Shown: one piece after another, positions 4,427 through 32,256 of the stretch | How the letters are laid out: each line of letters starts with the position of its first letter | Position numbering within the stretch: the stretch's first letter is position 1 | Origin: Candidatus Zhuqueibacterota bacterium | GTDB taxonomy: Bacteria; Zhuqueibacterota; Zhuqueibacteria; Residuimicrobiales; JAFGEC01 | Assembly: GCA_016931775.1 (NCBI GenBank) | Contig: JAFGEC010000286.1 | Span: forward strand, 1 to 32,378 | Direction: 5' to 3' | DNA: 32,378 nt | Program-made: the position numbers and the translations under genes | Notes under the pieces: model-generated | The model's database searches: none | Seen by the model: only the letters and a program-made list of their open reading frames with translations | What the model was told of the DNA's origin: nothing

Positions 4427-4458
4427 GTATGTTATATTTTTTTGAAAATATAGCACGC

Positions 4459-8490: not shown

Positions 8491-8531
8491 ATTAAAAAAG
8501 ATGTTGGTAATATAAAATGAAGGTGCTTCGG

Positions 8532-9842
8532 ATGCTGAATTTGATAAAAAGAAGACATTTTTTAAAAGGAGTGGGGGGAATGATCGGCTATTTAGCTGTG
8601 CATTCTACATTCGCAGGAAACCTGGATGTTTCGCGGGTCGTCATTGTAAAGGATGAAAAGGTTCTTGATGACCGGAACAGAATTCAGCCCGAAATCCTAC
8701 AGACCATGATGGACGCCGGTATATGCGCCGTCACCGGACAGGAGAATGTGGGCAAGGCGTGGGGCAGTTTGTTTCCCGGGCTGACAAGTGAAAAAATTAT
8801 TTCAATCAAGGCGAGTTGTCTCAACAGTCAGCTTTCAAGTCATCCGGAAGTGGCTCAAAGCATTATAAACGGTCTTGTACAACTGATTGTGGACGGAAAA
8901 TCATTTCCGGAAAATAATATTATTATTTGGGACCGTACTGACGGAGATTTGCGTAACGCCGGATATACCATAAATACATCTTCCAACGGCGTGCGATGTT
9001 ATGGTACAAACAATTCAAAAGGTGGATTGACATCTCAATCCTTCAATATCGCCGGATCAAATCAAAAGCTGAGTAAAATTTTGACCGAGCAGACGGATTA
9101 TTTGATCAATTTTAGTGCTTTAAAAAATCATGGAATGTCGGGTGTGACCTTGAGTATGAAAAATCATTATGGCAGTGTGAACAATCCCGGTGGCTTGCAT
9201 GGCGGAAACTGCGATCCGTACCTCGCGGCTTTAAATAATGTGTCTTTTATCCGCGATAAACAGGTGATAAATATCTGTGATGCTGTTTTCGGTATTGTTT
9301 CCGGAGGCCCGGGCGGCCGGCCACAGGTTACGCCAAAAAGTTTGATTTTTAGCACTGATACTGTTGCCCATGATTATATCGGTATGCAAATGCTGAAGGA
9401 CTACGGCATGGGAAGCGGTTCCGTCAGCCGAGCCAGTCATATTAAAACAGCCGCGTCGTCAGCGTATAATCTGGGCACCGACGATCCGGATAAAATACAA
9501 GTCTTTTCTATCGAAAATCCGGTTTCCGGCGTGGATATAAAAAAAGTAAAAGACCGGTATCCATCCGAATTTATGCTGGAAAGTAACTATCCCAACCCGT
9601 TTAATCCGCATACGACCGTGCCTTTTCATTTGCAGAGGGCTGCCGACATAAAACTGGAAATTTTTGACATGACCGGCAAGAGGATCAGCGTATTGGCGCA
9701 GGGATACCATTCTGCAGGATCCTATGAAGCGGTTTGGAATGGTTTATCGGAATACGGCAGCGTCGTCAGCAGCGGCACTTATATCTGCCGATTGCAAGCC
9801 GGAAAGCGAATACAATCCATAAAAATGCAGCTTTTAAAATAA
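8532..9842 (+). CDS. DUF362 domain protein with Tat signal and T9SS type A sorting domain
   Basis: ATG 8532 is chosen over ATG 8517 because an AAGGTG ribosome binding site (8520-8525) stands six bases before it and would lie inside the longer frame. The 436-residue protein begins with a twin-arginine signal, KRRHFLKG (R7-R8) followed by a hydrophobic stretch ending near AVHSTFAG. The body (about 35-335) has DUF362 hallmarks: NFSALKNHGMSGVTLSMKNH, a GGNCDP segment and the DAVFGIVSGGPGG loop. The last 90 residues (from about 347) are a type A sorting domain with NYPNPFNPHTT, a DMTGKRI turn and a GTYICRLQAG strand. The biochemical role of DUF362 proteins is not established; some occur fused to ferredoxin-like domains. 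Tat export suggests folding or cofactor loading in the cytoplasm before outer-membrane secretion. It follows the putative sortases on the same strand. Confidence 0.82.
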   Translation: MLNLIKRRHFLKGVGGMIGYLAVHSTFAGNLDVSRVVIVKDEKVLDDRNRIQPEILQTMMDAGICAVTGQENVGKAWGSLFPGLTSEKIISIKASCLNSQLSSHPEVAQSIINGLVQLIVDGKSFPENNIIIWDRTDGDLRNAGYTINTSSNGVRCYGTNNSKGGLTSQSFNIAGSNQKLSKILTEQTDYLINFSALKNHGMSGVTLSMKNHYGSVNNPGGLHGGNCDPYLAALNNVSFIRDKQVINICDAVFGIVSGGPGGRPQVTPKSLIFSTDTVAHDYIGMQMLKDYGMGSGSVSRASHIKTAASSAYNLGTDDPDKIQVFSIENPVSGVDIKKVKDRYPSEFMLESNYPNPFNPHTTVPFHLQRAADIKLEIFDMTGKRISVLAQGYHSAGSYEAVWNGLSEYGSVVSSGTYICRLQAGKRIQSIKMQLLK

Positions 9843-15531: not shown

Positions 15532-18500
15532 TTATTTTAAATAAACCATACGGCGTGTTTCCTGATGTTTCCCTGTTTGAATGCGGTAAAAATAGATACC
15601 TGAAGCCGCCATATTGCCTGCGTCCGTTGTGCCGTTCCAGTAGATTTCATGGACACCAGCGGAATAAGAGGTATTGGTAAGGGTTTTAATCGTTCTGCCG
15701 TGTACATCAAAAATATCCAGTTTCACATGGGCATCCGTTTCTTCGACCGGTATAGCGAACGATATGGTCGTTCCGCCGTTAAACGGATTGGGATAATTTT
15801 GCAGTAACTGAAACTTGTCAGGAGCCACAGGTTCGGCGGATAGTTCCGTCTCCAGCGTCTGGGCAAAAGCGGAAGCAAGAGCAGGAGGAGCCGGTGGTCT
15901 GTCGCTGTCGACCCAGAGCGGATCGGCTGCATCGGCACCGGGTGTTGTCCCCAACTGGCCGTTATTAGCAAAGGGTGACAGGTCGCCGGCTGTCTGACCG
16001 GCGCCTTCATCAAAGTTAAAGCATGCGACAAGACCGGCTTCCGAACCATTAGGTTGAGCGTACATTTGGGCTGCAATTTGACCGGGGGTTTTAGCGATGT
16101 TCCATATATGAAGATCGTCCAAAGTACCCTGAAAGTGCGCTTCCGTTTTGGTTCGTCGGTCCACTGCGCCGATAATCAAGTCGCCAAGTAATTTACGCGG
16201 AGCGACCAGTGCGGGTTTTGACGCCTCTTCAACACCGTCCACGAAAATTTTGGCAAAAGTACCGTTATAAGTCACGGCAATATGGTACCATGTGTTGGGT
16301 AGTAATACGGTTTGCGTCGGACCGGCGACAAATTTCATTCGGGAAATGTCACCGGTAACCACTGTTCTTAAAGCACCGGCGATGGTTGCCTGGGCATCGT
16401 AAAAACTGATAAAATATTCATCCCAGTTTCCTTTTTCCAGAATACGGGAATCGGCCTGGAAAGGATTCTCGGTTTTTAACCAGAATTCAATGGTAAAATT
16501 TTGAGAAACGTTGAGACTGGCGTCGTGAGGAACACGGACATAGTCATCGTTGCCGTCGAAGTGCAGCGCATGATTTGGGGCTCCGCCATCCAACACGATT
16601 GTGAAAATATTATCACTTGTGTCCTGCGGATTTCCTCCTACTGCCATAACCTTGACCAGAGCCTGATTCGCCACAATTTGAGGGACAATCCAGTTGAATT
16701 TTCCCGAATGGGGCTGGTTTGTTGCCAAAGTTGTCCAGGTGCCACCGTTATTCAGACTGAGTTCCACGTTGACCAGGCCGAGGTAATTGTCCGAATCCCA
16801 CCAGATATCATAAGCGTTTCCGGCAACAAGAACTTCACCCCCGTTGGGGAAAATGACGGTGATGTTTTCAGGGATGACCTGAGGCACGATTGAAAACACA
16901 TTATCGCTGGTGTCTGAAGGCGCACCGGAGGCGGTGTCGTAAACACGCACCAGGCCTTCATCGGTTTGTACATTGGGGACAGCCCATCCGATGGTTCCGG
17001 TTGACGGCATGTTAAATCCCAACGGATCCCAAGTGGCGCCGCTGTCCAGGGAGACCTCGACGGTGACTTTACCGTTATACAGTAATGAAGTCCAGCTCAC
17101 GTCATAAAAGGTATTTCCATTCAACACCTCGCCGCCGTTCGGTTTTACAACTCGAACACCCGGCTCCGGATCCTTGAAATAGAAACACCAATAGGTTTCA
17201 TCCCACGGGCAACCGCCGCCCCAGCCATCGGATATCCGGAGCCAGCCCGTTTTTTGACCATAATTGGGAACCTGCCACAAAAAGGAACCGTCGTTCGGCG
17301 TGTTTTGAGCGATTGTCACCGGATACGTTTCACCTTCATCAAACGACAATTCAATGGTTATTGTATTGCTGATGTTATAGGATGCCCATCGGATTTCCCA
17401 TGTGTCGCCCCAGGCAATATGTTCGCGATCATAGGGTGAGATCAGTTGAATCCATTGATTGACGGCATTCCACGGTCTTTTATTCAGGTCGTTGGTAATC
17501 AGGACTTGATCCATTTCCGCAAAAGGTTCCCGGCCGCGAAAAGATAATTTGTGGGCTCCGGCCGCCAATGTCACATAAACGGGATCAATGTCGGCAACAC
17601 TTGGTGGAAAACCATTGGGACCCCGGTGTGAAACTATCTGCCAGCGCCAATTCGGACCTTTTTCAAGATCCCACAGCCATTCGGTTCCTCCATCCATAGA
17701 AACCCACCATGAATTGCGGGTACCACCTGGTGCAAACATACGGCCCCAAATGATATAAACACCAGGATGCGTGACAGTAAAATTATACTCTGCAATGGCA
17801 TTAGATCCCTGCTTTACGAAAATGCTCTGGCATTGAAATGCTTTTCCCCGGATGCCGATTTCCATTTGTTCGGTTAACAGATCGGCATCTTCAGCTTCCC
17901 AGAAAAATTCCTGCTGCCAGCCGCCGGGATCGAGGATGGTGACAAGGCCGTCACTGTCGTCAAAAAAAAGTTCGTCGAGTGCATTGCACACTCTAAAACG
18001 TGCGGCCGTTGTCGGATAACCGGGAACATAGGTTTCAAAAGCGCCGTCATTGGGCGTTCGATAGGCGATCATGCGCCATTTAGCGAGATTATCCTGCCAA
18101 AAGTAAACGTTTACCTGAGGAACCGCTGCATCTACGGCCCACAGTACTGTCAAAGGATTGCCGATAACCAGCGCGGGTTCACCACCACCGCCGTTGGGGT
18201 ATATAAGTTTATATCCAATAGGTGCAGATGATGCAACGTGCTGGGGATCTTCGGTCTCGGCTGTATCATTTGTACCTCGAAGTAGAGCCAATCCGGTTAA
18301 CTGCAGATCGCCAAAAATTTGCGTACCAAGGGCTTCATCCAAACTGTAACAGGCAAACAGACCTGGCTCAGCCCCGGTGAGAGAGGTGCCGCGAGTATTG
18401 GCGATTTCCGCATCCGTCCGTCCGGTCGTCCACAAGCGAATTTCATCGATATATCCGTTAACAGAACGGCCGCCGCTCAAATTATTACCCAGTAACAAGG

Positions 18501-18969
18501 GATCTGTTACCGCCGGAAGGGCAAAATTGGCATGTGTGCTGCTGGAGGCACATTTAACACCATCGAGGAAAATGTTGGTGCGAAAAACACCCGCCGTTTC
18601 TTCAAACCGGCGGACAGCGACGTGGTGCCACTGATTCAAGAAGACGCTGTTATTTGGCGTAAATATGCTCTGTGCTGTTCCACTACTATTTTCCTGAAAG
18701 ACTATACTATGGTTTATGGCATCGATGTACAATGCAAATGACAGCCGGCGTTGTAAAATTCGTGAATCGTTGCCATAGGAATTTAACTTGATCCAGACCT
18801 CAAATGTATATGTCGTGGTAAAGTTGGTGTTTAACAGGTTTGTACCCGTTGTGTCCGAAAAAGTTGCGACATCGTTGTCAGCGGATTCGTAAAGAAAGGC
18901 ATTGCCCGGATCCGCCCATAATGAGCAAAAAGGCAAAAGAACCGCAAAAAGTACAAGAAATTTTTTCAT
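15532..18969 (-). CDS. Large secreted LamG/Ig-repeat surface protein with T9SS type A sorting domain
   Basis: 1145 residues, Sec signal peptide at 1-19 (LLPFCSLWA|DPG). Domains in order: LamG/concanavalin-like (about 23-215); Ig-like repeat (254-347); a carbohydrate-binding-like module starting WEAEDAD (357-492); three further Ig-like repeats (506-600, 604-695, 702-793), the last two with PNGGEVL openings and SLDSGATW/SLNNGGTW strands; a second LamG (800-985); a Pro/Ala-rich linker; and a type A sorting domain (1052-1145) with NYPNPFNGGTT and ASGIYFYRIQTG. LamG and CBM-like modules generally bind glycans or act in adhesion; no catalytic domain is visible. It is probably exported by T9SS and anchored or released at the cell surface, with the PorU-like proteins in this window as candidate processors. 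ATG 18969 has a perfect GGAGG seven bases upstream. It appears monocistronic, with its own terminator. Substrate unknown. Confidence 0.87.
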   Translation of the reverse strand: MKKFLVLFAVLLPFCSLWADPGNAFLYESADNDVATFSDTTGTNLLNTNFTTTYTFEVWIKLNSYGNDSRILQRRLSFALYIDAINHSIVFQENSSGTAQSIFTPNNSVFLNQWHHVAVRRFEETAGVFRTNIFLDGVKCASSSTHANFALPAVTDPLLLGNNLSGGRSVNGYIDEIRLWTTGRTDAEIANTRGTSLTGAEPGLFACYSLDEALGTQIFGDLQLTGLALLRGTNDTAETEDPQHVASSAPIGYKLIYPNGGGGEPALVIGNPLTVLWAVDAAVPQVNVYFWQDNLAKWRMIAYRTPNDGAFETYVPGYPTTAARFRVCNALDELFFDDSDGLVTILDPGGWQQEFFWEAEDADLLTEQMEIGIRGKAFQCQSIFVKQGSNAIAEYNFTVTHPGVYIIWGRMFAPGGTRNSWWVSMDGGTEWLWDLEKGPNWRWQIVSHRGPNGFPPSVADIDPVYVTLAAGAHKLSFRGREPFAEMDQVLITNDLNKRPWNAVNQWIQLISPYDREHIAWGDTWEIRWASYNISNTITIELSFDEGETYPVTIAQNTPNDGSFLWQVPNYGQKTGWLRISDGWGGGCPWDETYWCFYFKDPEPGVRVVKPNGGEVLNGNTFYDVSWTSLLYNGKVTVEVSLDSGATWDPLGFNMPSTGTIGWAVPNVQTDEGLVRVYDTASGAPSDTSDNVFSIVPQVIPENITVIFPNGGEVLVAGNAYDIWWDSDNYLGLVNVELSLNNGGTWTTLATNQPHSGKFNWIVPQIVANQALVKVMAVGGNPQDTSDNIFTIVLDGGAPNHALHFDGNDDYVRVPHDASLNVSQNFTIEFWLKTENPFQADSRILEKGNWDEYFISFYDAQATIAGALRTVVTGDISRMKFVAGPTQTVLLPNTWYHIAVTYNGTFAKIFVDGVEEASKPALVAPRKLLGDLIIGAVDRRTKTEAHFQGTLDDLHIWNIAKTPGQIAAQMYAQPNGSEAGLVACFNFDEGAGQTAGDLSPFANNGQLGTTPGADAADPLWVDSDRPPAPPALASAFAQTLETELSAEPVAPDKFQLLQNYPNPFNGGTTISFAIPVEETDAHVKLDIFDVHGRTIKTLTNTSYSAGVHEIYWNGTTDAGNMAASGIYFYRIQTGKHQETRRMVYLK

Positions 18970-21172: not shown

Positions 21173-21186
21173 ACGTGGGAAAAATT

Positions 21187-21900
21187 ATGGAAAACGACAT
21201 TTTAATCCAAACCAAAGATTTGGTGAAAATTTACCCTATGGGTAGTCAGGATCTGGTGGCGCTGGAGAAAGTTAATTTAACCTTTAAAAAGGGTGAATTT
21301 GCAGCTCTTGTGGGCCCGAGTGGATCGGGTAAAACAACGTTGTTGAATATTATCGGATCGTTGGATACTCCTACAAGAGGCAGCGCCATCGTTATGGGGC
21401 TAGAAGTGGAAAAATTGTCTCATAAAAAATCCGCGGAGTTGCGCAACAAACATATCGGATTCATCTTTCAAACCTTTAATTTACTGCCGGTGTATACGGT
21501 TTATGAAAATGTTGAATTTCCGCTTTTGCTCAGCGATGTACCGGCTTCGGAACGGAAGCAGCGTGTCATGCAGGCGCTTGAATGGGTTAAACTGGCCGAC
21601 CGCCACCGTTCAAAACCCAATCAGCTGTCCGGGGGGCAAAGCCAGAGAGTTGCGGTTGCCAGGGCTATTGTAAAAATGCCGTCAATTGTACTGGCGGATG
21701 AGCCGACTGCCAATCTGGATGCAGAAAACTCCCATAATGTCATGCAAATTATGGAAGGATTGAACAAAGAATTGGGTATGACCTTTATATTTTCCACCCA
21801 TGATGAAAAGGTCGTACAGTATATGCGGCGTATAATCTCACTGGACGACGGCAGGGTGGCAAAAGATGAATTTGTTAAATCCGTAAAAAAGAGGGTATAA
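21187..21900 (+). CDS. ABC transporter ATP-binding protein, LolD/MacB type
   Basis: 237 residues from ATG 21187, preferred over GTG 21175 because GGGA (21177-21180) stands six bases upstream as a ribosome binding site. Motifs are complete: Walker A GPSGSGKTT (43-51), Q-loop IFQTFNLLP (93-101), signature LSGGQSQR (147-154), Walker B SIVLADEPT (166-174), D-loop NLD, and H-loop H205 in STHDE. The FNLLPVYTVYENVEFPL stretch is characteristic of the LolD/MacB/FtsE group, which powers mechanotransmission by FtsX-type permeases rather than moving substrate through a membrane channel. Two such permeases follow immediately. LolD itself extracts lipoproteins from the inner membrane; the downstream LolA-like gene makes a Lol-type role attractive. 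Confidence 0.93.
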   Translation: MENDILIQTKDLVKIYPMGSQDLVALEKVNLTFKKGEFAALVGPSGSGKTTLLNIIGSLDTPTRGSAIVMGLEVEKLSHKKSAELRNKHIGFIFQTFNLLPVYTVYENVEFPLLLSDVPASERKQRVMQALEWVKLADRHRSKPNQLSGGQSQRVAVARAIVKMPSIVLADEPTANLDAENSHNVMQIMEGLNKELGMTFIFSTHDEKVVQYMRRIISLDDGRVAKDEFVKSVKKRV

Positions 21901-21902
21901 AA

Positions 21903-23078
21903 ATGTTAATGTTCAAACTCGCTCTTCGAAATATACTTGGTGCCGGGCTTCGCACATGGTTGAATGTCATCGTGCTGTCGTTTTCTTTTGTAGCGATTAT
22001 TTACATGCAGGGAATTTATGATGGCATGCAGGACCAGGCTTCCCAGGCAGAGATACAATTTGCTTACGGCGGCGGACAATACTGGCATGCGGCATACGAT
22101 CCGTATGATCCGTTTAGTTTGCAGGATAGCCATGGAAAAATCGCCCCGGAACTGCAGGATAAAATAAATGACGGAGAGGCAACGCCTGTTTTAATTGTAC
22201 AGGGTTCCATGTATCCGAACGGGCGACTTAAACCTGTACTGCTGAAAGGCATTGATCCGGCTCAAAAGACTGTGGCTATTCCAAGTGCTGTCCTGGCAAA
22301 AGAAAAGGATGCCATACCGGCGCTGATCGGTGCGCGTACCGCACGGAACAGCGGCTTAAAGATCGGCGACTATGTCACCATTCGGTGGCGGGACGCCAAC
22401 GGGACTTTTGACGCCCAGGAAGTCAAGATTATGGAGATTATGAACACCCTGGTGCAATCCATAGATAACGGTCAGATCTGGATGCCTCTGGAGCAGTTGA
22501 GGCAGCTTTCGGGTATGCCCGACGAGGCCACACTGGTTATTCTGGGGCAGGAGACCGATTCTCCGGCACAGGTTTCCCTGGGCTGGGTTCATAAAGATAT
22601 GGATTTTTTACTCAAGGACTTGAAACAGCTTGTAAAAACCAAGACCATCGGCGCTTCGGTTATGTATATCGCATTGCTCCTGCTGGCAATGCTGGCTATT
22701 TTTGATACCCAGGTATTATCCCTCTTCAGACGGCGTAAAGAGATCGGTACTCTTGTGTCATTGGGAATGACCCGAGTCCAGGTGATAAAGCTGTTTACAT
22801 TCGAGGGTGCCATGCACGGTATACTTGCTGCGGGTGTGGCCGCACTTTATGGGATTCCTCTGTTTATTTACAGTGCAAAAGCCGGATGGAAATTGCCCCA
22901 AGTGACAGAGGGATACGGTCTCTCAATCGGTCAAACCCTGTTTCCGGTTTTTGGCGCCGGACTTGTGGTTGGTACCATATTTCTGGTTATGATCACGGTG
23001 ACGATTGTCAGTTATTTACCCACACGGCGTATTTTGAAACTTAAACCGACAGACGCATTAAGAGGAAAAATGTCATGA
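21903..23078 (+). CDS. FtsX/MacB-type ABC transporter permease 1
   Basis: 391 residues. Topology is the type VII ABC pattern: one N-terminal membrane helix (about 20-37), a periplasmic domain (40-245), then three helices (250-272, 303-323, 346-372). The coupling segment RRRKEIGTLVSLGMT (277-291) is the FtsX-domain signature that contacts the ATPase. The periplasmic part contains LIGARTARNSGLKIGDYVTI, the usual MacB-PCD motif. ATG 21903 has GAGGG seven bases upstream; a second ATG at 21909 is also possible. It starts two bases after the ATPase stop and overlaps permease 2 by four bases. Two different permeases with one ATPase match the LolC/LolE heterodimer arrangement rather than a MacB homodimer. 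Confidence 0.88.
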   Translation: MLMFKLALRNILGAGLRTWLNVIVLSFSFVAIIYMQGIYDGMQDQASQAEIQFAYGGGQYWHAAYDPYDPFSLQDSHGKIAPELQDKINDGEATPVLIVQGSMYPNGRLKPVLLKGIDPAQKTVAIPSAVLAKEKDAIPALIGARTARNSGLKIGDYVTIRWRDANGTFDAQEVKIMEIMNTLVQSIDNGQIWMPLEQLRQLSGMPDEATLVILGQETDSPAQVSLGWVHKDMDFLLKDLKQLVKTKTIGASVMYIALLLLAMLAIFDTQVLSLFRRRKEIGTLVSLGMTRVQVIKLFTFEGAMHGILAAGVAALYGIPLFIYSAKAGWKLPQVTEGYGLSIGQTLFPVFGAGLVVGTIFLVMITVTIVSYLPTRRILKLKPTDALRGKMS

Positions 23079-24349
23079 TAAAATTTTTAATAAAAGGTCT
23101 GCTGCGCGATCGCTCAAAAAGTCTGTTTCCGGTGCTGACGGTAACGGCAGGTGTGACGCTGGTTGTGTTTGCTATCTGTTGGGTCGGCGGTGTGCAAACC
23201 AATATGATGAGTGCCAGCGCACATTTTCGAACCGGGCATGTTAAAATAATGACGCGGGCTTATGCTGAGCAGTCCGATTTGTTGCCAGTCGATCTGGCAC
23301 TGGTCGGTACGGATTCTTTACTTGGGCATTTGAAGGCAAGTTATCCGGGTATGATCTGGACGCAGCGGATTTTATTTGCCGGTTTGCTGGATGTTCCCGA
23401 TGAAAGTGGTGAAACGCGCGAACAGGGCACGGTAGCCGGTATTGCAATCAGTGTTTTGGATCCCGGCAGTCCGGAACATAAGTTTTTGGAAATGGAAAAA
23501 TCCATCGTTCGTGGACGTATGCCGCAAAAATCCTATGACTGCCTGATCAGCGAAACCTTTGCTCAAAAGTTAAAAGTTAATCCGGGGGATGAGGTAACAC
23601 TGATCGGCTCCACGATGTTCGGTGCCATGTCCATGACGAATTTCACTGTTGCCGGCACGGTTCGGTTTGGAATTTCGGCTTTAGACCGCGGCGCTCTGAT
23701 TGCGGATATAACCGACGTCCAAACGGCGCTGGACATGGATAACGGTGCCAGTGAAATACTGGGTTTTTTTACCGATGACATTTATCACCGTGAAAAAGCC
23801 GTGGACCTGGCCGAACAGTTTAATATAAAAAACACTGATCCTGACGGCGAATTCTCACCGGTGATGCTTGCACTGGAACAACAGGAGGGTTTAGCCGGTA
23901 TGCTGGATATGGTTGGTATGATGTCAAGTGTGATCATTACTATTTTCATAGTCGTCATGTCCATTGTACTTTGGAATGCCGGACTCATGGGCAATATCCG
24001 CCGTTATGGTGAAATTGGTGTTCGCCTAGCCATGGGAGAAGCAAAAGGTCACTTGTATCGAAGCTTGCTGTTGGAAGCGTTCGCCATAGGAATATTCGGG
24101 TCATTGATCGGCACGGTGTTGGGTTTAATTGTTTCTTTTTATTTGCAATATCACGGAATCGATATCACAAGTTTTTTAAAGGATTCCACAATCATGCTGC
24201 CGGACGTTATGCGGGCACGAGTGACATCGTCAGCCTATTTTATCGGATTTTTACCCGGTGTTTGTGCCACTTTTTTGGGCGCGGCGATTTCGGGAATTGG
24301 TGTATATAAACGGCAAACGTCACAATTGTTCAAGGAGCTTGAGGTATGA
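23075..24349 (+). CDS. FtsX/MacB-type ABC transporter permease 2
   Basis: 424 residues with the same topology as permease 1: N-terminal helix (about 17-39), periplasmic MacB-PCD-like domain (about 45-285, including LISETFAQKLKVNPGDEVTLI), and three C-terminal helices. The coupling segment is NIRRYGEIGVRLAMGEAKG. The N-terminal GHVKIMTRAY after helix 1 is reminiscent of LolE/LolC-like permeases (GHIxI motif). It overlaps its neighbours on both sides by four bases (ATGA), so expression is translationally coupled to permease 1 and to the LolA-like carrier. The two permeases are clearly different in sequence, which supports a heterodimer with a distinct partner surface on each. Confidence 0.88.
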   Translation: MIKFLIKGLLRDRSKSLFPVLTVTAGVTLVVFAICWVGGVQTNMMSASAHFRTGHVKIMTRAYAEQSDLLPVDLALVGTDSLLGHLKASYPGMIWTQRILFAGLLDVPDESGETREQGTVAGIAISVLDPGSPEHKFLEMEKSIVRGRMPQKSYDCLISETFAQKLKVNPGDEVTLIGSTMFGAMSMTNFTVAGTVRFGISALDRGALIADITDVQTALDMDNGASEILGFFTDDIYHREKAVDLAEQFNIKNTDPDGEFSPVMLALEQQEGLAGMLDMVGMMSSVIITIFIVVMSIVLWNAGLMGNIRRYGEIGVRLAMGEAKGHLYRSLLLEAFAIGIFGSLIGTVLGLIVSFYLQYHGIDITSFLKDSTIMLPDVMRARVTSSAYFIGFLPGVCATFLGAAISGIGVYKRQTSQLFKELEV

Positions 24350-25074
24350 AAAGTCTATTATTTTTGCTGGTTCCTGTTTTTGCCTTTGCTCAAGTACCAT
24401 CGGGTGAGGAGATATTAAAAAAGGTCGATGAAAACAGCTGGGCAAAGACCCGTATTTTTACATCCAAAATGATCGTACAGGGCCGGCGGGCCACGCGAAC
24501 CATAACGTCCAAATCGTGGGTCAAGGGTGATGAGGCCGCGTTTACCGAATACCTTGCACCGGCACGGGAAAAAGGTATCAAAATGCTTAAAATGGAGGAC
24601 CAACTGTGGACGTATTCTCCGCAGACCGACAGGATTATCCGTATCTCCGGACATATGCTGCGCCAGTCGGTTATGGGTTCAGATCTTTCATATGAAGATA
24701 TGATGGAAGATGCCGAAATTGTAAAAAAATATGATGCAAAAGTTGAGGGATCGGAAGTTGTATTGGACTGTGAGTGCTGGGTTCTTCTGCTTTCAGCAAA
24801 GGACAAAGATGCGGCATATCAATCAAGAAAAGTGTGGGTCGATAAGGAAAGATATATTATTTTAAAGGAAGAGAGATATGCTAAAAGCGGTAAATTGTTG
24901 AAACGAACAGAGATACTAAGCGTGCGCCGCATGGGCGGCCGCTGGGTTGCCGGTGAGATTCTGTTTAGGGATTTATTAAAAAGCGGTAAGGGTACAAAGT
25001 TTATCATAGAATCAGTGGAATACAATGCGGATATTCCGGATTATATTTTTTCAAAGGCTTCCTTGCGCAAATAA
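24346..25074 (+). CDS. LolA-like periplasmic carrier (outer-membrane lipoprotein-sorting protein family)
   Basis: 242 residues with a signal peptide (MKSLLFLLVPVFAFA|Q, 15 residues). Features of the LolA_like family are visible: PSGEEILKKVDENSW near the mature N-terminus, RTITSKSWVKGDEAAFTEYLAPAREKG, then LWTYSPQTDRIIRIS and MGSDLSYEDM. The order matches the open half-barrel that carries a lipid moiety in LolA/LolB. Proteins of this family often accompany RND-type lipid exporters; here the partner is a MacB/Lol-type ABC transporter with overlapping genes. Likely role: accept a lipid or lipidated substrate from the permease pair and deliver it to the outer membrane or the barrel. The stop overlaps the start of the pseudouridine synthase gene by one base (TAATG). 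Confidence 0.87.
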   Translation: MKSLLFLLVPVFAFAQVPSGEEILKKVDENSWAKTRIFTSKMIVQGRRATRTITSKSWVKGDEAAFTEYLAPAREKGIKMLKMEDQLWTYSPQTDRIIRISGHMLRQSVMGSDLSYEDMMEDAEIVKKYDAKVEGSEVVLDCECWVLLLSAKDKDAAYQSRKVWVDKERYIILKEERYAKSGKLLKRTEILSVRRMGGRWVAGEILFRDLLKSGKGTKFIIESVEYNADIPDYIFSKASLRK

Positions 25075-26048
25075 TGAATAAAGAAAAAGTTTTACAATTT
25101 GAAATAACCGACGGTCAGCAGAAGATGCGGTTGGATCTGTTTTTAGCCGCAAGATTACCATCCGTAACCCGGGCAAAAATAAAACGGCTTATTGATGAAA
25201 ATTATGTAACCCTCGGTGGTGAACCGTGCAAAGCCGGGCATATCATACGTCCCGGTGAGCTGGTAACCGTTTATTTTCCGATTGTAAAGATTGATCATAT
25301 TGAGCCGGAAGACATTCAACTTGATATCATTTATGAAGATGAGTCACTTTTGGTTGTCAATAAGCCACCGGGTCTGGTGGTGCATCCCGCTTATGGTAAT
25401 ATGAGCGGAACGCTGGTCAATGCCCTTATGGCTCATTGTAAAAATCTTTCAAGCGTTGCAGGCGACAAACGCCCCGGACTGGTACACAGGCTTGACAAGG
25501 ATACTTCGGGACTTTTGGTTGTGGCCAAGGATGATGTGACACATGTTGAATTATCCCGGCAATTATCGCAACGAAAAATCGAGCGTGAATATCGGGCAAT
25601 TGTTTGGGGACACTTGAAAAAGAAAACCGGTACGATTGCGGCATCGTTGGCCCGGAGTCCCAAGGATCGCACCAAAATGCAAATCAACGAGGACGGGAAG
25701 CATGCTGTAACCCATTATGAACTGGTAAAAAAGTTTCATCTCATGAGTTATGTAAAACTTTATCTTGAAACCGGCCGTACCCATCAGATTCGCGTTCATA
25801 TGGCGTCAATCGGGCATCCGGTTTTCTCCGATAAAACATATGGCGGTCGTGGGCACCAGCTGGCCGGCAGGAATCACGAGGACACAATACTGATAAAAGA
25901 ATTCTTAAAAAAATATGACCGGCAGATGCTCCATGCGCGTTCTTTGGTATTTGTGCATCCGCAGCGAAAGGAGCTTGTCCGTTTCGATTCGCCGTTGCCG
26001 GCGGATATGCAAATGCTCATACAAGACCTTGAAACCGCCTCAGTGTAA
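25074..26048 (+). CDS. rluD: 23S rRNA pseudouridine synthase, RluA/RluD family
   Basis: 324 residues. An N-terminal S4 RNA-binding domain (about 17-65: MRLDLFLAARLPSVTRAKIKRLI) precedes the catalytic domain (from about 85). Signature HRLDKDTSG is at 138-146 with catalytic Asp D141; VNKPPGLVVHP (95-105) and RTHQIRVHMASIGHP are the other family motifs. Length and domain order fit RluD, which modifies helix 69 of 23S rRNA, but RluA-family specificity cannot be read from sequence alone. Its ATG overlaps the LolA-like stop (TAATG), so it is transcribed with the transport operon although functionally unrelated; a housekeeping gene at the end of a TetR-controlled operon may need its own promoter. 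None is obvious in the preceding coding sequence. Confidence 0.92.
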   Translation: MNKEKVLQFEITDGQQKMRLDLFLAARLPSVTRAKIKRLIDENYVTLGGEPCKAGHIIRPGELVTVYFPIVKIDHIEPEDIQLDIIYEDESLLVVNKPPGLVVHPAYGNMSGTLVNALMAHCKNLSSVAGDKRPGLVHRLDKDTSGLLVVAKDDVTHVELSRQLSQRKIEREYRAIVWGHLKKKTGTIAASLARSPKDRTKMQINEDGKHAVTHYELVKKFHLMSYVKLYLETGRTHQIRVHMASIGHPVFSDKTYGGRGHQLAGRNHEDTILIKEFLKKYDRQMLHARSLVFVHPQRKELVRFDSPLPADMQMLIQDLETASV

Positions 26049-26232: not shown

Positions 26233-27954
26233 ATGAACAGTTCACGTACACAATCATTTTTAGTTTATGTCTGGATTCTTGCCGGTGTATTAATATTTTT
26301 TATTATGTTTTTTTTCAGCAACGGATACGCCAGACAAAGAGATCAATTTAAAGGATTATCCGAGTATGAAAGAGAGGTTGTTCAGGAGTCTGAGGAGCGT
26401 TACCTGGCAAACCGGGAAATGTCGCCCTTACGTTTTAACGGCGATGCGGTTATCGAGAAAAGCGAATATATACACGGTGATGTGGTTGTAATGAAAGGTA
26501 CGCTGCTTGTTGCCGGTGAAATTGACGGTAACATCGTTGCAATATTTGGTGATGTTGATTTACAGGAAACGGCCATTGTTTCCGGTGATGTGGTGAGTGT
26601 TGAAGGCAAAATCTGGCGACGAACCGGTGCCTCTGTATCGGGTGATATCGTAGAAACCGACGCTCCTGAAGATCTAACCGGGGGCAGGAATCAGCGGCGG
26701 GTTTACCGTGGCATGCAAGGCAGTGATGACGATGATAGACGGACACCCCGAGTGGTTAGAAAACGCATGAGGGAATATGAAGAAGATGAGATGGAGCCCT
26801 GTTGGATGGACTATACCCGGGTGGACGGATTGACACTGGGGCTTAAAAGTCCGGAGCGCGAATGGTGGCAAGATCATCATCACAGTTTTGCTATACTGGG
26901 TAGGGGCGGATATTCTTTCGCATCGAAAAAATGGCAATATCAGGTCGGTCTGGAGCGCAGTTTGTCTTATGATTATATTTTTTCTTTTGGAGCCGAGTAC
27001 CACAATATGACGGATACCCAGGACCGGTGGATTATCAGCGATCATGAGAACGCTCTGGCTGCGCTTCTGATCAAAGAAGATTTTCGCGATTATTATCACC
27101 GTGAAGGTTATAGTTTTTATGCTATTCAAAAATTGTCCGCCGATATTAATATCCGAGGCGAATACCGCTCAGATGCCTTTAATAATCTGCTGGAAAATAA
27201 GGCGTCTTGGTCTATGTTCGGAAAAAAGAAAAAATTCGGTATCAATCCTTACGCCATCCCACCGGTGGGAGATGTGGAAAACGATTTTTATGCACCCGCA
27301 ATGGACATTCAAAGTATTGCCGCCACATTTACCATTGACACACGTGACAGCCGGAAAAATCCCACACGCGGCTGGTACATACAAGCTTTTGGTGAGCGCG
27401 CAGGATATGAGTTGAAAAGCGATATGGAATTTCAACGTTTTATTCTTGATATTCGCAAGTACCAACCGCTGGGCTGGGATGAAAATTTTAACTTCCGGCT
27501 TCGGGGCTGTACGGCAACGGGACTGCTGCCACCTATGTACTGGTACGATCTCGGCGGATTATCCACACTGCGCGGCTACCGTCACAAGTCCTTTACCGGC
27601 GATCGAATGCTTCTCGGCAACGTGGAATACGTTCTACACACGGATAATACCAACCTGTTTATTCTGGATGACTTTAATATCATTCTGTTCGTGGATTCGG
27701 GTTGTGCCTGGTTTGCCGATGCAGATACGCCAAATAAAATGACTCGCTGGCCGGTTGAAGACACGGAACAGGTTGAGGCAAACGAAGTACCGCCTGAAGA
27801 CAGCTTTGAAACCATTACATGGTCAAGCTTGAAAACCAATGTAGGTATCGGGCTGGCAAGCCGTGACGGTGGTTTTCGGGTGGATTTTGCCAAATCCACG
27901 GAAAGAGGTGAAAACGATTATTACATAACCTTGCGGTTCCAGCATCCGTTCTAG
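26233..27954 (+). CDS. Beta-solenoid (bactofilin-like) domain fused to an Omp85/BamA-type outer-membrane barrel
   Basis: 573 residues. The signal region has a hydrophobic core (about 10-28) and a cut site near NGYA|RQR. Residues about 70-140 are short repeats with hydrophobic periodicity (YIHGDVVVMKGTLLVAGEI, DGNIVAIFGDVDLQ, AIVSGDVVSVEGKI, ASVSGDIVETD), typical of polymer-forming/bactofilin-like or other right-handed beta-solenoids. A charged linker (about 140-190) leads to a barrel whose landmarks fit the Omp85 superfamily: DTRDSRKNPTRGWY, LGGLSTLRGYRHKSFTGDRM (the conserved RGY element), a DSG strand, SSLKTNVGIGLASRDGGFRVDFA, and the C-terminal strand YYITLRFQHPF ending in Phe, a BAM recognition signal. 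No POTRA domains are seen, so the solenoid occupies their place. Function may be membrane insertion, translocation or a structural surface link; none is established. A 7-base spaced ribosome binding site supports ATG 26233. Confidence 0.8.
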   Translation: MNSSRTQSFLVYVWILAGVLIFFIMFFFSNGYARQRDQFKGLSEYEREVVQESEERYLANREMSPLRFNGDAVIEKSEYIHGDVVVMKGTLLVAGEIDGNIVAIFGDVDLQETAIVSGDVVSVEGKIWRRTGASVSGDIVETDAPEDLTGGRNQRRVYRGMQGSDDDDRRTPRVVRKRMREYEEDEMEPCWMDYTRVDGLTLGLKSPEREWWQDHHHSFAILGRGGYSFASKKWQYQVGLERSLSYDYIFSFGAEYHNMTDTQDRWIISDHENALAALLIKEDFRDYYHREGYSFYAIQKLSADINIRGEYRSDAFNNLLENKASWSMFGKKKKFGINPYAIPPVGDVENDFYAPAMDIQSIAATFTIDTRDSRKNPTRGWYIQAFGERAGYELKSDMEFQRFILDIRKYQPLGWDENFNFRLRGCTATGLLPPMYWYDLGGLSTLRGYRHKSFTGDRMLLGNVEYVLHTDNTNLFILDDFNIILFVDSGCAWFADADTPNKMTRWPVEDTEQVEANEVPPEDSFETITWSSLKTNVGIGLASRDGGFRVDFAKSTERGENDYYITLRFQHPF

Positions 27955-28056
27955 TTTACGGAACAAAGTTACGATTTATGCGTAAACCGACTAGATGTAT
28001 ATTTGAAAGGGAGGACGATCAGTTTTCCCTTTGTTCATTCAATCAGGGAGGAAAAC

Positions 28057-28908
28057 ATGATTCGAAAATTTCGATACGTATTTTTGTTATTGTTGCTTTT
28101 TGGGGTTTCCAGCCGGGCTGAAAAAGTGACCATCGATCAACTCTACCCCATTAAGGGTGAACTCTTCAAGCTCACGCTCAAGATTGACGGCGGAGAAGTG
28201 GAAGTTAGCAGGGGAAATCGAGCCCGCGAGTGCTTTTTATATGTGGAATATAACAGCGAGCGGATCGAAACGGATGTACGTTTTCATGAAAACACGGATG
28301 AATTACTGGTAAAGCTGGATATCAAAGATCTGGGCTTTTGGAAAAAGGAAAATAAAGACCGTTCATGGACTGCAAAAGTAAAAATCGAGTTACCGACCGA
28401 TCCGGACATAGATTTACGAACCGAAATTAAAGCCGGTGAAACGAAGCTTGATCTCGGTGATCTGCATATACAAAATTTTATTCTTAAAAACTGGGCCGGA
28501 GAAGTGGAAGTGAATTTTGATCGCCCGAACCTAACGAAAATGAACATTTTCGATGTGAGCGTCAAGGTGGGTGAGATGCGTCTGCGTAATCTGGGTAATG
28601 CCAATTTTGAGGAAGGTGATATTAACGGCGGGATCGGTGAAATGGCCGTTGATTTCAGCGGCTCTGCATTTAAACGTTCCATGGCCAGGATCGATTTGGA
28701 TGTGGGTGAAACCACCATCGTACTGCCACGGCAGGCCGGTGCAAAACTCAAAGTCAGCAAATTTTCGTTTCTCTCCAGTGTTGAATATCCAAACTGGTTT
28801 GAAAAACGAGGTAAATATTATTATTCTGAAAATTATGAAAATGCCGACCAGTCTATTTTTCTCATGATCTCTTCGGGTATTGGAGAATTAAATATAAGGG
28901 TGAATTAA
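28057..28908 (+). CDS. Exported repeat protein with LiaF/toastrack-like (DUF4097-like) beta fold
   Basis: 283 residues from ATG 28057, which has GGGAGGA five bases upstream; the frame is open to TTG 28003 but that start would precede the signal peptide (MIRKFRYVFLLLLLFGVSSRA). The mature part is built of recurring Gly-Glu strands about 20-25 residues apart: AGETKLDLG, AGEVEVNFD, VGEMRLRNLG, IGEMAVDFS, VGETTIVLP and IGELNIRV. The spacing and the VGETTIVLPRQAGAKLKV stretch are reminiscent of the LiaF C-terminal and DUF4097 toastrack folds, which are scaffold-like right-handed beta structures. No catalytic residues stand out. It follows the solenoid-Omp85 gene by 102 bases with a shared terminator downstream, so a joint envelope role is likely. 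Family assignment is by pattern only. Confidence 0.65.
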   Translation: MIRKFRYVFLLLLLFGVSSRAEKVTIDQLYPIKGELFKLTLKIDGGEVEVSRGNRARECFLYVEYNSERIETDVRFHENTDELLVKLDIKDLGFWKKENKDRSWTAKVKIELPTDPDIDLRTEIKAGETKLDLGDLHIQNFILKNWAGEVEVNFDRPNLTKMNIFDVSVKVGEMRLRNLGNANFEEGDINGGIGEMAVDFSGSAFKRSMARIDLDVGETTIVLPRQAGAKLKVSKFSFLSSVEYPNWFEKRGKYYYSENYENADQSIFLMISSGIGELNIRVN

Positions 28909-28940
28909 AAAAAGGCCGGCAATCGCCGGCCTTTTTTTTT
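28907..28940 (+). terminator. strong rho-independent terminator after the toastrack-like gene
   Basis: An A-tract overlapping the stop codon is followed by AAAGGCCGGC (28911-28920), loop AATC, GCCGGCC (28925-28931) and nine T (28932-28940). The GC-rich stem with tetraloop and uninterrupted T-tract is textbook. It isolates the Omp85/toastrack pair from the tricorn gene, which must therefore have its own promoter in 28941-29031; a TTGACT at 28966-28971 is a possible -35 but no matching -10 is clear. Confidence 0.93.
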
Positions 28941-29031
28941 GCATTTGAGAAATTTTATTTTTTTTTTGACTCTATATTAGTAGAGAGTTCATCCAAGGGG
29001 GAGGGATTTCCATTTTAAGGTGGGAGAATGT

Positions 29032-32000
29032 ATGTCCAGAGCAATACATCCAATCATTTATTTTCTTTTTTTATATTCGATTTGTTATTCTGTCGAAGGC
29101 CGGTTTTTGGAAAAACCTGATATTTCCCGGCAATATATTGTTTTTTCATACCGGGAAAATTTATGGCGGGTTGACATCGAAGGCGGCACGGCGATACGCT
29201 TAACTTCCCATCCGGGATGTGAAAACAATGCAAAAATATCACCGGACGGTAAATGGGTCGCGTTTTCCGGTAATTATCACAAGGGATTGAATGTATACCT
29301 GATGCCTATAGAAGGAGGATCGCCGCAACGGTTGACTTTTCGCACACCCGCTCAAGTGGTCACGTGGCATCCGGATAACAACCGTATCATATTCCGCGTT
29401 AATTTCAATTATACTTATCATGCCGTGACAGAGTTGTTTACGGTCGATAAACAAGGCCACTATCCGGAAAAATTACCTGTACCGACGGGTATTTTATGTT
29501 CTTTTTCACCGGATGGCCGGCGACTGGTTTACAACCGAAGGGGCCGCGAAGATTATTATTGGAAGGGCTATAAAGGCGGAAAATATCAGGATATTTGGCT
29601 CTATGATGCTGAAGCGGATAGCTTTAGCCAGGTAACAAAATATATAGGTCAAAACAGTTATCCCATGTGGATAGGAGACGGATTTTATTTTGTATCCGAC
29701 CGGGAGGGGGGTATCGCCAATATATTCCGCTATGATTTTAACTCTCAAAAAATTGAAAAAGTTACCTTTTACCGGGATTATGACGTGCAAATGCCGTCCA
29801 CAGACGGTAAAAATATTGTATTTATGCATAGCGGATACCTTTACGTCTATTATCCGGCTACCGGACAGACAAACAGGATTAACGTGCAAATTCCCGATGA
29901 CCGCTGGGAATTGATCCCTCGAACCATTAATCCAAAAGAATATATTCATTCCATATCTTTATCCAGTCATGGCGATTCCATATTGTTCGAAGCACGTGGC
30001 GACATTTTTATCGTTCCCAAAGATAAAAAGCTGGCGACACAAAACATAACGGCCACACCAGGGTCACGTGAACGATACCCCCAGTTTTCACCAGATGGAA
30101 AATGGGTGGCATTTTTCTCCGATAAATCGGGAGAATACCAGCTTTATATCAGGCCGATAAACGGCGCAAAATGGATAACGTTGACGAACTGTTTAAACAC
30201 CACACCTTACGATCTTGAATGGTCACCCGACGGTAATAAAATTTTATTTAGTGATAAAAATCTCACATTGTATTATGTGGATGTCAAGACAAAGAAATTA
30301 CACATCATTGATCAAAGTAAACAATTAAGAAATGACGAGTTTACATGGAAGATGAGTGATTACGATTGGTCTCCGGACAGTAAATGGGTGGTGTATTCCC
30401 AGGTTCAATACAACCGGAACAGTAAAATTTTTCTATATCACCTGGACAGCGGCGAAACGTTTGCCTTGACCGGTGATTTTTTCGATAATATTAATCCCTG
30501 TTTTGACAAAAACGGTGAATATTTGTACTTTTTAAGCTATCGGGATTATAATGTAGATATGGATCTATTCGAAGATAATCATATCATTTCAAATCCCGTT
30601 CAAGTTATGGTCATTCAACTGCGTGCCGGACAGGTCCCCCCGTTTGAGAGTCGTATTATGGCCGGTCTGCGGCCTTTTACGATCGATTTGAAAGGCATCC
30701 AGGAGCGGATTTTTTTTCTCCCGGTAAAATCAGGTAATTATTTTCATTTGAAGGCCGGCTGCAACACGATCACCTGGGCATCGGTTGATTTTATCTCGGC
30801 AGATGAATTTTATGAAGTGTACCAGCCTCTCGGTAAATCAAAATGGAAATTGCATATATACGATATGCAGAAGAATAAACATGTGGTCTGTAAAGAAAAT
30901 ATGAGCGACTGGCGGGTATCGATGAATGGCAAAAATATTTTGACATGCAGGGAAAAAAATTATTCGATACGTTCTTTAAAGAATATAATGGCCGATTCCT
31001 GTTTTTATCAACCCGTGTGCACGGATAAAATGTATTTCAGCATCGATCCTTTAAAAGAGTGGTCGCAAATATTTTATGAGACCTGGCGCTGGTACCGGGA
31101 TTTTTTTTACGATCCCGCGATGCACGGTAAAAAGTGGGAACAGATTAGGCAACGCTATGAGGGATATCTACCCGATCTGATATCCCGCGATAATCTCAAC
31201 TGGGTACTTTTACAAATGGTCGGAGAACTCAATGTGTCGCATACGTATATATCAAATGGTGACAGCGGTCCCCTGGAACCACCTGAGCAGACGGAGTTCA
31301 CCGGTTTACTTGGGGTCGATCTGGAGACGACGGATTCGGGTTTTTACCGGTTTGCCGCCATTTTAGGGCCGAATGAATATTCACGTGATCTAAAAGGGCC
31401 GTTGGCCAGAGCGGACATCGATCTGAAGGCGGGACATTACCTTGTTAAAATAAACGAACAAATTATCAAAGGGCCGGAAAATCCTTATAAATACCTGCAG
31501 GTTTCAAAAGGTGAAAAGGTGACAATCACTTATAACGACACACCGACATTACAAAATGCACGTTCCGTTACCGTTGAGCCGCTTGTATCGGAACGTGATT
31601 TACGTTATGCCGACTGGCTGACGAGCACGATTTCGCAAGTTTTAGAGAATTCTCAAAATAATATCGGATATATGCATCTAAATGCAATGAATGTGGAAAA
31701 TGTCGGGCATTTTGACAAATTTTGGCGTGCTTTTCGGTATAAAAAAGGCCTGATTATCGATGTAAGAGGCAACCGGGGAGGGTGGACTGAATATTTTATG
31801 ATTGACAAGCTGGAACGGAAAATGGTCGCTCAAAATTGTATTCGGGATATGGTACCGTTCCGGTATCCCGGCAGTGTCTCAAACGCCCATCTGGTTTTAT
31901 TGACCAATGAATATAACCATTCGGACGGCGAACTGTTTGTGGAGCATTTTAAGGCGAGAAACCTGGGTACCGTAATCGGAACCCCATCATGGGGCGGACT

Positions 32001-32256
32001 GGTCGGTATTGTAAACCTGATGTGGACAGTTGATAACGGCAAGGTTTTTCAATCAAACAATTCGTTTTACGGACGTGATGGGGAGTGGTTGGTAGAAAAC
32101 AGGGGTGCCTTGCCGGATATTTACGTCGACAATGACCCGGCGTCGCAAAAAGACGGACGTGACAAGCAGTTGGAAACGGCGATCAGCCTGTTGCTGCAAA
32201 AGATCGCCGAGGACAGCAGTCTGTTTCCTGTCCGGCCGGATTATCCGGTTCGGTGA
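29032..32256 (+). CDS. Exported tricorn-type serine protease (beta-propeller plus S41 protease core)
   Basis: 1074 residues from ATG 29032, preferred over GTG 29020 because GGGAGA lies just before it and the result is a compact signal sequence (IHPIIYFLFLYSICYS). The N-terminal half (about 40-640) is beta-propeller with repeated PDGKWVAF/SPDG blades of the PD40/tricorn type. A helical segment, a PDZ-like domain (about 755-860) and an S41 core follow. The tricorn catalytic tetrad is recognisable: S736-H737 in ELNVSHTYI, nucleophile S964 in NEYNHSDGELF, and E1022 in LVENRGALPD, very close to archaeal tricorn positions 745/746/965/1023. Archaeal tricorn cuts proteasome products in the cytosol; bacterial homologues with signal peptides probably degrade peptides in the periplasm or outside. 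An LYSIC segment does not fit a lipobox. tRNA-Lys follows 49 bases downstream. Confidence 0.93.
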   Translation: MSRAIHPIIYFLFLYSICYSVEGRFLEKPDISRQYIVFSYRENLWRVDIEGGTAIRLTSHPGCENNAKISPDGKWVAFSGNYHKGLNVYLMPIEGGSPQRLTFRTPAQVVTWHPDNNRIIFRVNFNYTYHAVTELFTVDKQGHYPEKLPVPTGILCSFSPDGRRLVYNRRGREDYYWKGYKGGKYQDIWLYDAEADSFSQVTKYIGQNSYPMWIGDGFYFVSDREGGIANIFRYDFNSQKIEKVTFYRDYDVQMPSTDGKNIVFMHSGYLYVYYPATGQTNRINVQIPDDRWELIPRTINPKEYIHSISLSSHGDSILFEARGDIFIVPKDKKLATQNITATPGSRERYPQFSPDGKWVAFFSDKSGEYQLYIRPINGAKWITLTNCLNTTPYDLEWSPDGNKILFSDKNLTLYYVDVKTKKLHIIDQSKQLRNDEFTWKMSDYDWSPDSKWVVYSQVQYNRNSKIFLYHLDSGETFALTGDFFDNINPCFDKNGEYLYFLSYRDYNVDMDLFEDNHIISNPVQVMVIQLRAGQVPPFESRIMAGLRPFTIDLKGIQERIFFLPVKSGNYFHLKAGCNTITWASVDFISADEFYEVYQPLGKSKWKLHIYDMQKNKHVVCKENMSDWRVSMNGKNILTCREKNYSIRSLKNIMADSCFYQPVCTDKMYFSIDPLKEWSQIFYETWRWYRDFFYDPAMHGKKWEQIRQRYEGYLPDLISRDNLNWVLLQMVGELNVSHTYISNGDSGPLEPPEQTEFTGLLGVDLETTDSGFYRFAAILGPNEYSRDLKGPLARADIDLKAGHYLVKINEQIIKGPENPYKYLQVSKGEKVTITYNDTPTLQNARSVTVEPLVSERDLRYADWLTSTISQVLENSQNNIGYMHLNAMNVENVGHFDKFWRAFRYKKGLIIDVRGNRGGWTEYFMIDKLERKMVAQNCIRDMVPFRYPGSVSNAHLVLLTNEYNHSDGELFVEHFKARNLGTVIGTPSWGGLVGIVNLMWTVDNGKVFQSNNSFYGRDGEWLVENRGALPDIYVDNDPASQKDGRDKQLETAISLLLQKIAEDSSLFPVRPDYPVR

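Follow-up and report, generated by a model that had tools for sequence, protein, structure and literature searches.

What does an Omp85 barrel do when the POTRA domains expected in front of it give way to a short beta-solenoid? The question is raised by the gene at positions 26233..27954 of the 32,378-nucleotide stretch analysed here (the window), a single ATG-initiated open reading frame on the forward (+) strand that encodes a 573-residue protein and whose parts, given below, all lie on that strand. The beta-barrel occupies residues 190-573 (26800..27951), with 16 predicted strands and a C-terminal Phe, as delimited by Pfam, the structural model and structural alignment. The Pfam Omp85 family (PF01103) matches it at E=2.1e-17, above its cut-off, and the initial annotation had placed this barrel with exact coordinates and frame; the NCBIfam Omp85 family and BamA models match the protein under their cut-offs. 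In VIA alignments the barrel superposes on Sam50 (Z 23.6), BamA (Z 22.5) and TamA (Z 21.6) across ~290-320 residues. Loop L6, delimited from the alignment (residues 431-457; 27523..27603), carries GG.ST-LRGY, which we take to be the Omp85 VRGF/Y-type motif, equivalent to that of BamA. The window protein reads LRGY at this point and 26 of 35 aligned rows read [LIM]RG, the rest showing variants such as LPG, LRA and LHG, and loops L3 and L4 hold many invariant residues in the orthologue alignment.

No POTRA family of Pfam matched the window protein at E<=1. An AlphaFold2 model built from an alignment of 61 sequences (whole-protein mean pLDDT 87.1, pTM 0.73) begins with a helix at residues 3-39, in the region of a predicted signal peptide (residues 1-33; 26233..26331) whose GYA cleavage site was placed by eye and whose hydrophobic segment is shared by the orthologues. 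A helix ending in a conserved Tyr-Leu follows at residues 44-58 (26362..26406; models and alignment), and then a bactofilin-fold beta-solenoid of about four coils at residues 66-142 (26428..26658), predicted from Pfam, profiles, models and structural alignment. Between solenoid and barrel lies a charged, disordered linker (residues 143-189; 26659..26799), recognised by pLDDT, composition and low identity, with 13 D/E and 11 K/R in residues 143-188. The model is confident in the solenoid strands (pLDDT ~93-96), falls below 50 in the linker at residues 149-185 and places the 16 barrel strands between residues 190 and 569. The N-terminus is thus modelled as helix, solenoid and disordered linker and does not have the POTRA domains of BamA and TamA, in keeping with the earlier proposal that POTRA had been replaced; structure prediction returned neither a POTRA-like nor a disordered segment where the solenoid had been suspected. 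Among 13 close orthologues the mean identity of the solenoid (0.46) is similar to that of the barrel (0.49), with values of 0.74 for loop L6, 0.61 for loop L3 and 0.15 for the linker, and we infer from sequence that the solenoid is probably under selection where it is present.

The bactofilin-like character of the solenoid, already suspected in the initial annotation, was borne out by the profiles of the relatives and by structural alignment. The Pfam Bactofilin family (PF04519) matched the whole protein at E=3.9e-4 with 21.1 bits and the solenoid alone with 25.0 bits, both under the curated cut-off of 27.9, so that the window protein falls short of Pfam's threshold for bactofilin membership. 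Across an alignment of 35 relatives (A1), 8 of which are without a solenoid, 21 were matched by PF04519 at E<=0.01 (best E=5.8e-13), as were 39 of 47 isolated solenoid segments. Foldseek with the full model gave only barrels among the best 50 matches listed, and the solenoid was therefore searched alone. That search returned nothing at E<=0.001, with 6rib at rank 30 (E=0.77) and with ice-binding proteins and other beta-helices, all weak, ahead of bactofilin. Because the Foldseek matches are weak, the assignment draws on VIA alignment and on sequence profiles. Modelled alone with its preceding helix, the solenoid reached pLDDT 92.9 and pTM 0.85; when 300 chains were re-aligned to it by VIA, the first three ranks went to 6rib (Z 9.4), 6ria (Z 9.4) and 2n3d (Z 7.8), the three solved bactofilin structures, at an rmsd of 2.6-3.5 across 73-78 residues, and the best non-bactofilin chain scored Z 7.2. 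A profile search of the PDB with the solenoid gave the same bactofilins as top matches (E ~0.001); profiles were needed, a single sequence giving no match there. These two lines of support, each modest, favour a predicted right-handed beta-helix of the bactofilin fold.

We then considered how widely this fusion occurs. A contig scan with the single sequence as query confirmed no relative, and an alignment used as query in its place recovered 79 loci. A strong orthologue (best E <=2e-128, profile A3) is present in 65 of 82 genomes of the phylum KSB1/Calditrichota, and the match includes the solenoid in 43 of the 82, all belonging to the window's class. In the other 22 of the 65 orthologues the match starts at the barrel and the solenoid is absent, one of the 22 lying at a contig end. 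Records of a second collection bore the labels KSB1, Calditrichota, Zixibacteria, Ignavibacteriae, Bacteroidota, Gemmatimonadota, Latescibacterota, Krumholzibacteria and Eisenbacteria, among others; those that bear the solenoid include members of the first five, one Gemmatimonadota and one Eisenbacteria. A search for the same fusion in FCB genomes had been suggested, and it does recur, both in the 43 genomes of the phylum, a group of uncultured bacteria in which it is widespread, and in Zixibacteria, Ignavibacteriae, Gemmatimonadota and Eisenbacteria. An assembly chimera or chance fusion was considered and rejected, given the 43 of 82 phylum genomes and the second-collection records. Loci L032-L071 and many of L088-L166 represent the same genomes reached through the two collections. 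L088, labelled Actinomycetota, has a barrel near that of Calditrichota L093 and probably comes from a mislabelled or mis-binned genome.

The arm in front of the barrel takes several forms. Among 41 loci (L032-L071 and the window) one solenoid is found in 26, three in 7 and none in 8. The linker of barrel-only forms is short and in many cases Asp/Trp-rich, and in L064, L065, L067 and L068 the linker is very rich in these residues where the solenoid would be. In a tree of 77 barrel rows (loci L088 and up) and the window, from which we removed identical barrels and those that scored <80 bits or fell short of ~300 residues, the three-solenoid form makes up a single clade (100/98). A clade of Krumholzibacteria, Gemmatimonadales and Eisenbacteria carries AMPK1_CBM before the barrel; AMPK1_CBM/CBM48 arms sit on the same barrel branch in L159, L162 and L164, L161 is assigned to this clade by sequence likeness and the tree, and an Eisenbacteria locus (L142:2930-5383) encodes a single protein that joins a solenoid and a CBM to the barrel. 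As one solenoid, three, none, a CBM, or solenoid plus CBM all occur on one branch, the barrel, judged by its sequence, is a shared chassis and the N-terminal arm is variable. We claim neither a single origin of the solenoid nor a particular ancestral state, because the one-solenoid state requires at least 4 changes on the starred branches. Barrel-only paralogues of ~400-440 aa directly followed by a second Omp85 of ~440-500 aa form tandems in L072-L078, L087, L150, L153, L157 and L163, the second protein having POTRA confirmed by Pfam only for L078. Solenoids outside barrels occur at L080:5932-7805, L081:1808-3533 and L082:6173-7862, each with an ECF-type sigma factor gene (identified by Pfam in L080 and by sequence likeness in L081 and L082) and a multi-pass solenoid protein.

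Which gene accompanies the barrel gene can be read more directly from its surroundings. A co-oriented Toastrack (LiaF-like_C) gene (28003..28908, +) begins 49 bases downstream; PF09922 matches it with 37.5 bits, above the cut-off of 29, and LiaG and NCBIfam LiaF models match under their cut-offs. Its likely start is an internal ATG near 28057 that is followed by a signal peptide, both placed by eye. The window thus encodes what appears to be a secreted stand-alone Toastrack, contrary to the intracellular location argued for in the passages of PMC11237479 cited here. In L032-L071 and the window, to which the neighbour counts refer, a Toastrack gene lies directly downstream in 20 of the 37 loci with room for one and within three genes in 24 of 37. 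By arm, the latter count divides into 15 of 23 loci with one solenoid, 4 of 7 with three and 5 of 7 with none. The remaining 13 of 37 have no Toastrack within three genes, some of them solenoid-bearing (L036, L047-L049, L051, L053, L054, L056-L059). Toastrack genes also adjoin solenoid-barrel genes outside the sample of the window's class and phylum (L083, L084). L064, L065, L066 and L068 are orthologues without a solenoid that keep the same Toastrack gene downstream, and for this reason the solenoid does not determine what the protein does; the earlier suggestion of an outer-membrane organising role conferred by the solenoid is, on the same observation, not supported. What stays constant is the barrel and, in many loci, the Toastrack neighbour.

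Directly after the Toastrack gene stands a strong intrinsic-terminator-like hairpin of 14 pairs with a T tail (28907..28938, +), and by a crude rule (T-run plus stable fold) a like terminator was found in only 2 of 24 relatives. Promoter-like sites are at chance level (8 observed, 6.8 expected). In L067 a gene for a lipoprotein with a longer solenoid (L067:6545-7219) lies between the barrel and Toastrack genes, and a similar solenoid lipoprotein, its lipoprotein signal judged by eye, is encoded elsewhere in the window genome (L177, G000:C269). Upstream, an RluD-like pseudouridine synthase (25074..26048, +) is a conserved neighbour that probably has no functional link to the barrel gene. The two cases scanned in Zixibacteria and the CBM clade (L145, L161) have a DUF4390 gene beside that of the barrel. 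In the window, upstream of the RluD-like gene, 21175-25074 encodes in a row an ABC ATPase, a pair of permease-like proteins and a LolA-like protein of outer-membrane lipoprotein sorting. A Tricorn-type protease with beta-propeller, PDZ and S41 parts (29020-32256) lies directly downstream of Toastrack, with no homologue among the other loci compared. The window also holds two tandem gingipain-type C25 peptidases of 1334 and 1344 aa with FlgD_ig C-termini (422-8457), and two open reading frames with Por_Secre_tail (8517-9842 and 15532-18969), pointing to type IX secretion.

The window genome (G000) contains 13 Omp85 matches. One is a 758-aa frame with POTRA-like repeats that adjoins Skp- and LpxD-like genes (L168), and another a 598-aa Omp85 adjoining a TamB-like gene (L167), all these names being judged from sequence. 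We considered the window protein as the organism's BamA or TamA and rejected both, these loci lying elsewhere in the genome. With BamA and a TamA-like protein accounted for by other loci, the window protein is an additional Omp85. Its relatives point to DUF5686 (PF18939; a CarboxypepD_reg-like domain plus barrel): 32 of 35 relatives hit this profile at E<=0.01, and the DUF5686 proteins L165 and L166 join the barrel tree. In contrast, the N-terminal region of DUF5686 proteins is long and different, and the window protein itself gives no match at E<=1 and so lies outside DUF5686 as that profile defines it.

In order to rationalise these observations, we propose, with a probability of about 0.5, that the protein is an additional Omp85 factor, neither BamA nor TamA, from a DUF5686-related, POTRA-less branch, and that its solenoid would be an exchangeable periplasmic docking arm. 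The constant job, whether assembly, translocation or remodelling, would be done by the barrel at the outer membrane; we infer this activity from the superfamily alone, and the conservation of the L6 motif and the strong conservation of the surface loops would go with it. The solenoid would hang in the periplasm on its flexible tether and recruit partners, docking much as POTRA domains do for BamA, the putative partners being periplasmic beta-helix proteins, that is, the co-encoded Toastrack and/or a solenoid lipoprotein. Such docking would need no filament formation, and the docking on a periplasmic scaffold that the initial annotation offered as one option may be close to this proposal. In its favour we count the swapping of modules on one barrel, the Toastrack linkage even where the solenoid is absent, and the solenoid lipoproteins in the L067 operon and the window genome; against it count the 13 loci without a near Toastrack, the rarity among relatives of the hairpin expected at the end of a two-gene unit, and the split behaviour of DUF5686 between the relatives and the window protein.

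Bactofilins polymerise without nucleotides, and the solenoid could do likewise, end to end, and so line up or cluster the barrels beneath the outer membrane. Bactofilins are its closest fold and closest solved sequences, and one clade has three solenoids in a row. The interface position, in turn, can be read both ways: the passages of PMC12364344 cited here describe the C-to-C polymerisation interface as holding a hydrophobic residue, usually Phe, and Val135, which occupies about this position by counting from the structural alignment range, is V, I or L in all 47 solenoids but is not Phe. About four coils over 77 residues also compare poorly with a bactofilin core of ~110 aa (in the passages cited of PMC12448750). 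The helix in front of the solenoid, a possible N-terminal cap whose Tyr is invariant (in all 27 rows that have a residue at this position), may according to the models block one of the two end faces used in bactofilin polymerisation; in the triple-solenoid proteins its Tyr-Leu is also retained ahead of the third solenoid, and the linker follows the other end. With the solenoid short, a helix conserved before its first coil and some orthologues at the same locus solenoid-less, we disfavour polymerisation and regard it as possible but unlikely, and the organiser function proposed earlier is further weakened by the same coil count and helix.

Two other readings were considered. The N-terminal modules might bind glycan, either peptidoglycan or surface polysaccharide, with the barrel active at the cell wall, engaged in polysaccharide traffic or serving as a tether between outer membrane and wall, as the CBM arms of L159, L162 and L164, the joint solenoid and CBM of L142 and a neighbour of the LiaF family, linked to cell-wall stress in the passages cited of PMC11237479, would suggest. 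No glycan-binding signature was detected in the window solenoid, however, and CBM_5_12 matched only 2 of 47 solenoid rows (A2), weakly, which leaves this reading unlikely. Alternatively, the solenoid would form the outer-membrane part of a sensor of envelope stress, with the signal passing to a similar solenoid on an inner-membrane protein: the nearest non-barrel solenoids (48% identity, L080) are in the multi-pass membrane proteins adjoining ECF-type sigma factor genes in L080, L081 and L082, and a solenoid-barrel gene (L129/L083, 586 aa) is followed by such a sigma factor gene. Yet in a solenoid search that covered 30 genomes chosen from 99, the window genome showed no ECF-linked solenoid, its other solenoid matches being confined to the lipoprotein L177, and the genomes with ECF-type solenoids have barrel-only orthologues, so that we consider a sensor very improbable.

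Compared with known systems, the docking-arm protein we favour belongs to a familiar kind with an unfamiliar arm. Non-POTRA Omp85 types, including WD40-Omp85, metallo-Omp85 and noNterm, are among the ten subfamilies set out in the cited passages of Heinz and Lithgow 2014 (PMC4104836), and share with the window protein an Omp85 barrel in which POTRA is replaced by another domain or by none; the subfamilies described in those passages include no bactofilin, solenoid or Toastrack type. With bactofilins the solenoid shares a predicted right-handed beta-helix, a glycine-rich repeat and the top structural and PDB-profile matches, but it is secreted, fused to an outer-membrane barrel, shorter, preceded by a helix and under the Pfam cut-off. 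The downstream gene resembles the LiaF/LiaG Toastrack of PSP-like envelope stress systems in its LiaF-like_C and LiaG matches and differs in being secreted and paired with an Omp85 barrel. The literature searched, mostly papers available without subscription, yielded no description of an Omp85-bactofilin fusion among the matches listed and no paper using the term DUF5686, and within those limits a bactofilin-type arm on a non-POTRA Omp85 is apparently unreported.

These findings mean that, in orthologous loci, unrelated modules of beta-helix or carbohydrate-binding type can take the place of the Omp85 segment presumed to deliver clients to the barrel, and that this segment can also be lacking entirely. 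The role of the barrel would then be separable from that of the arm, with natural swaps available for testing, and the predicted bactofilin fold is located on the periplasmic side and anchored to the outer membrane. More speculatively, and in our judgement quite unlikely, several FCB phyla would own a modular Omp85 chassis with an arm interchangeable between one solenoid, three, a CBM and none, and the solenoid arms would join the secreted Toastrack and a solenoid lipoprotein in a bactofilin-like skeleton that lines the outer membrane from within; if true, the periplasm would have its own equivalent of the bactofilin cytoskeleton known from the cytoplasm.
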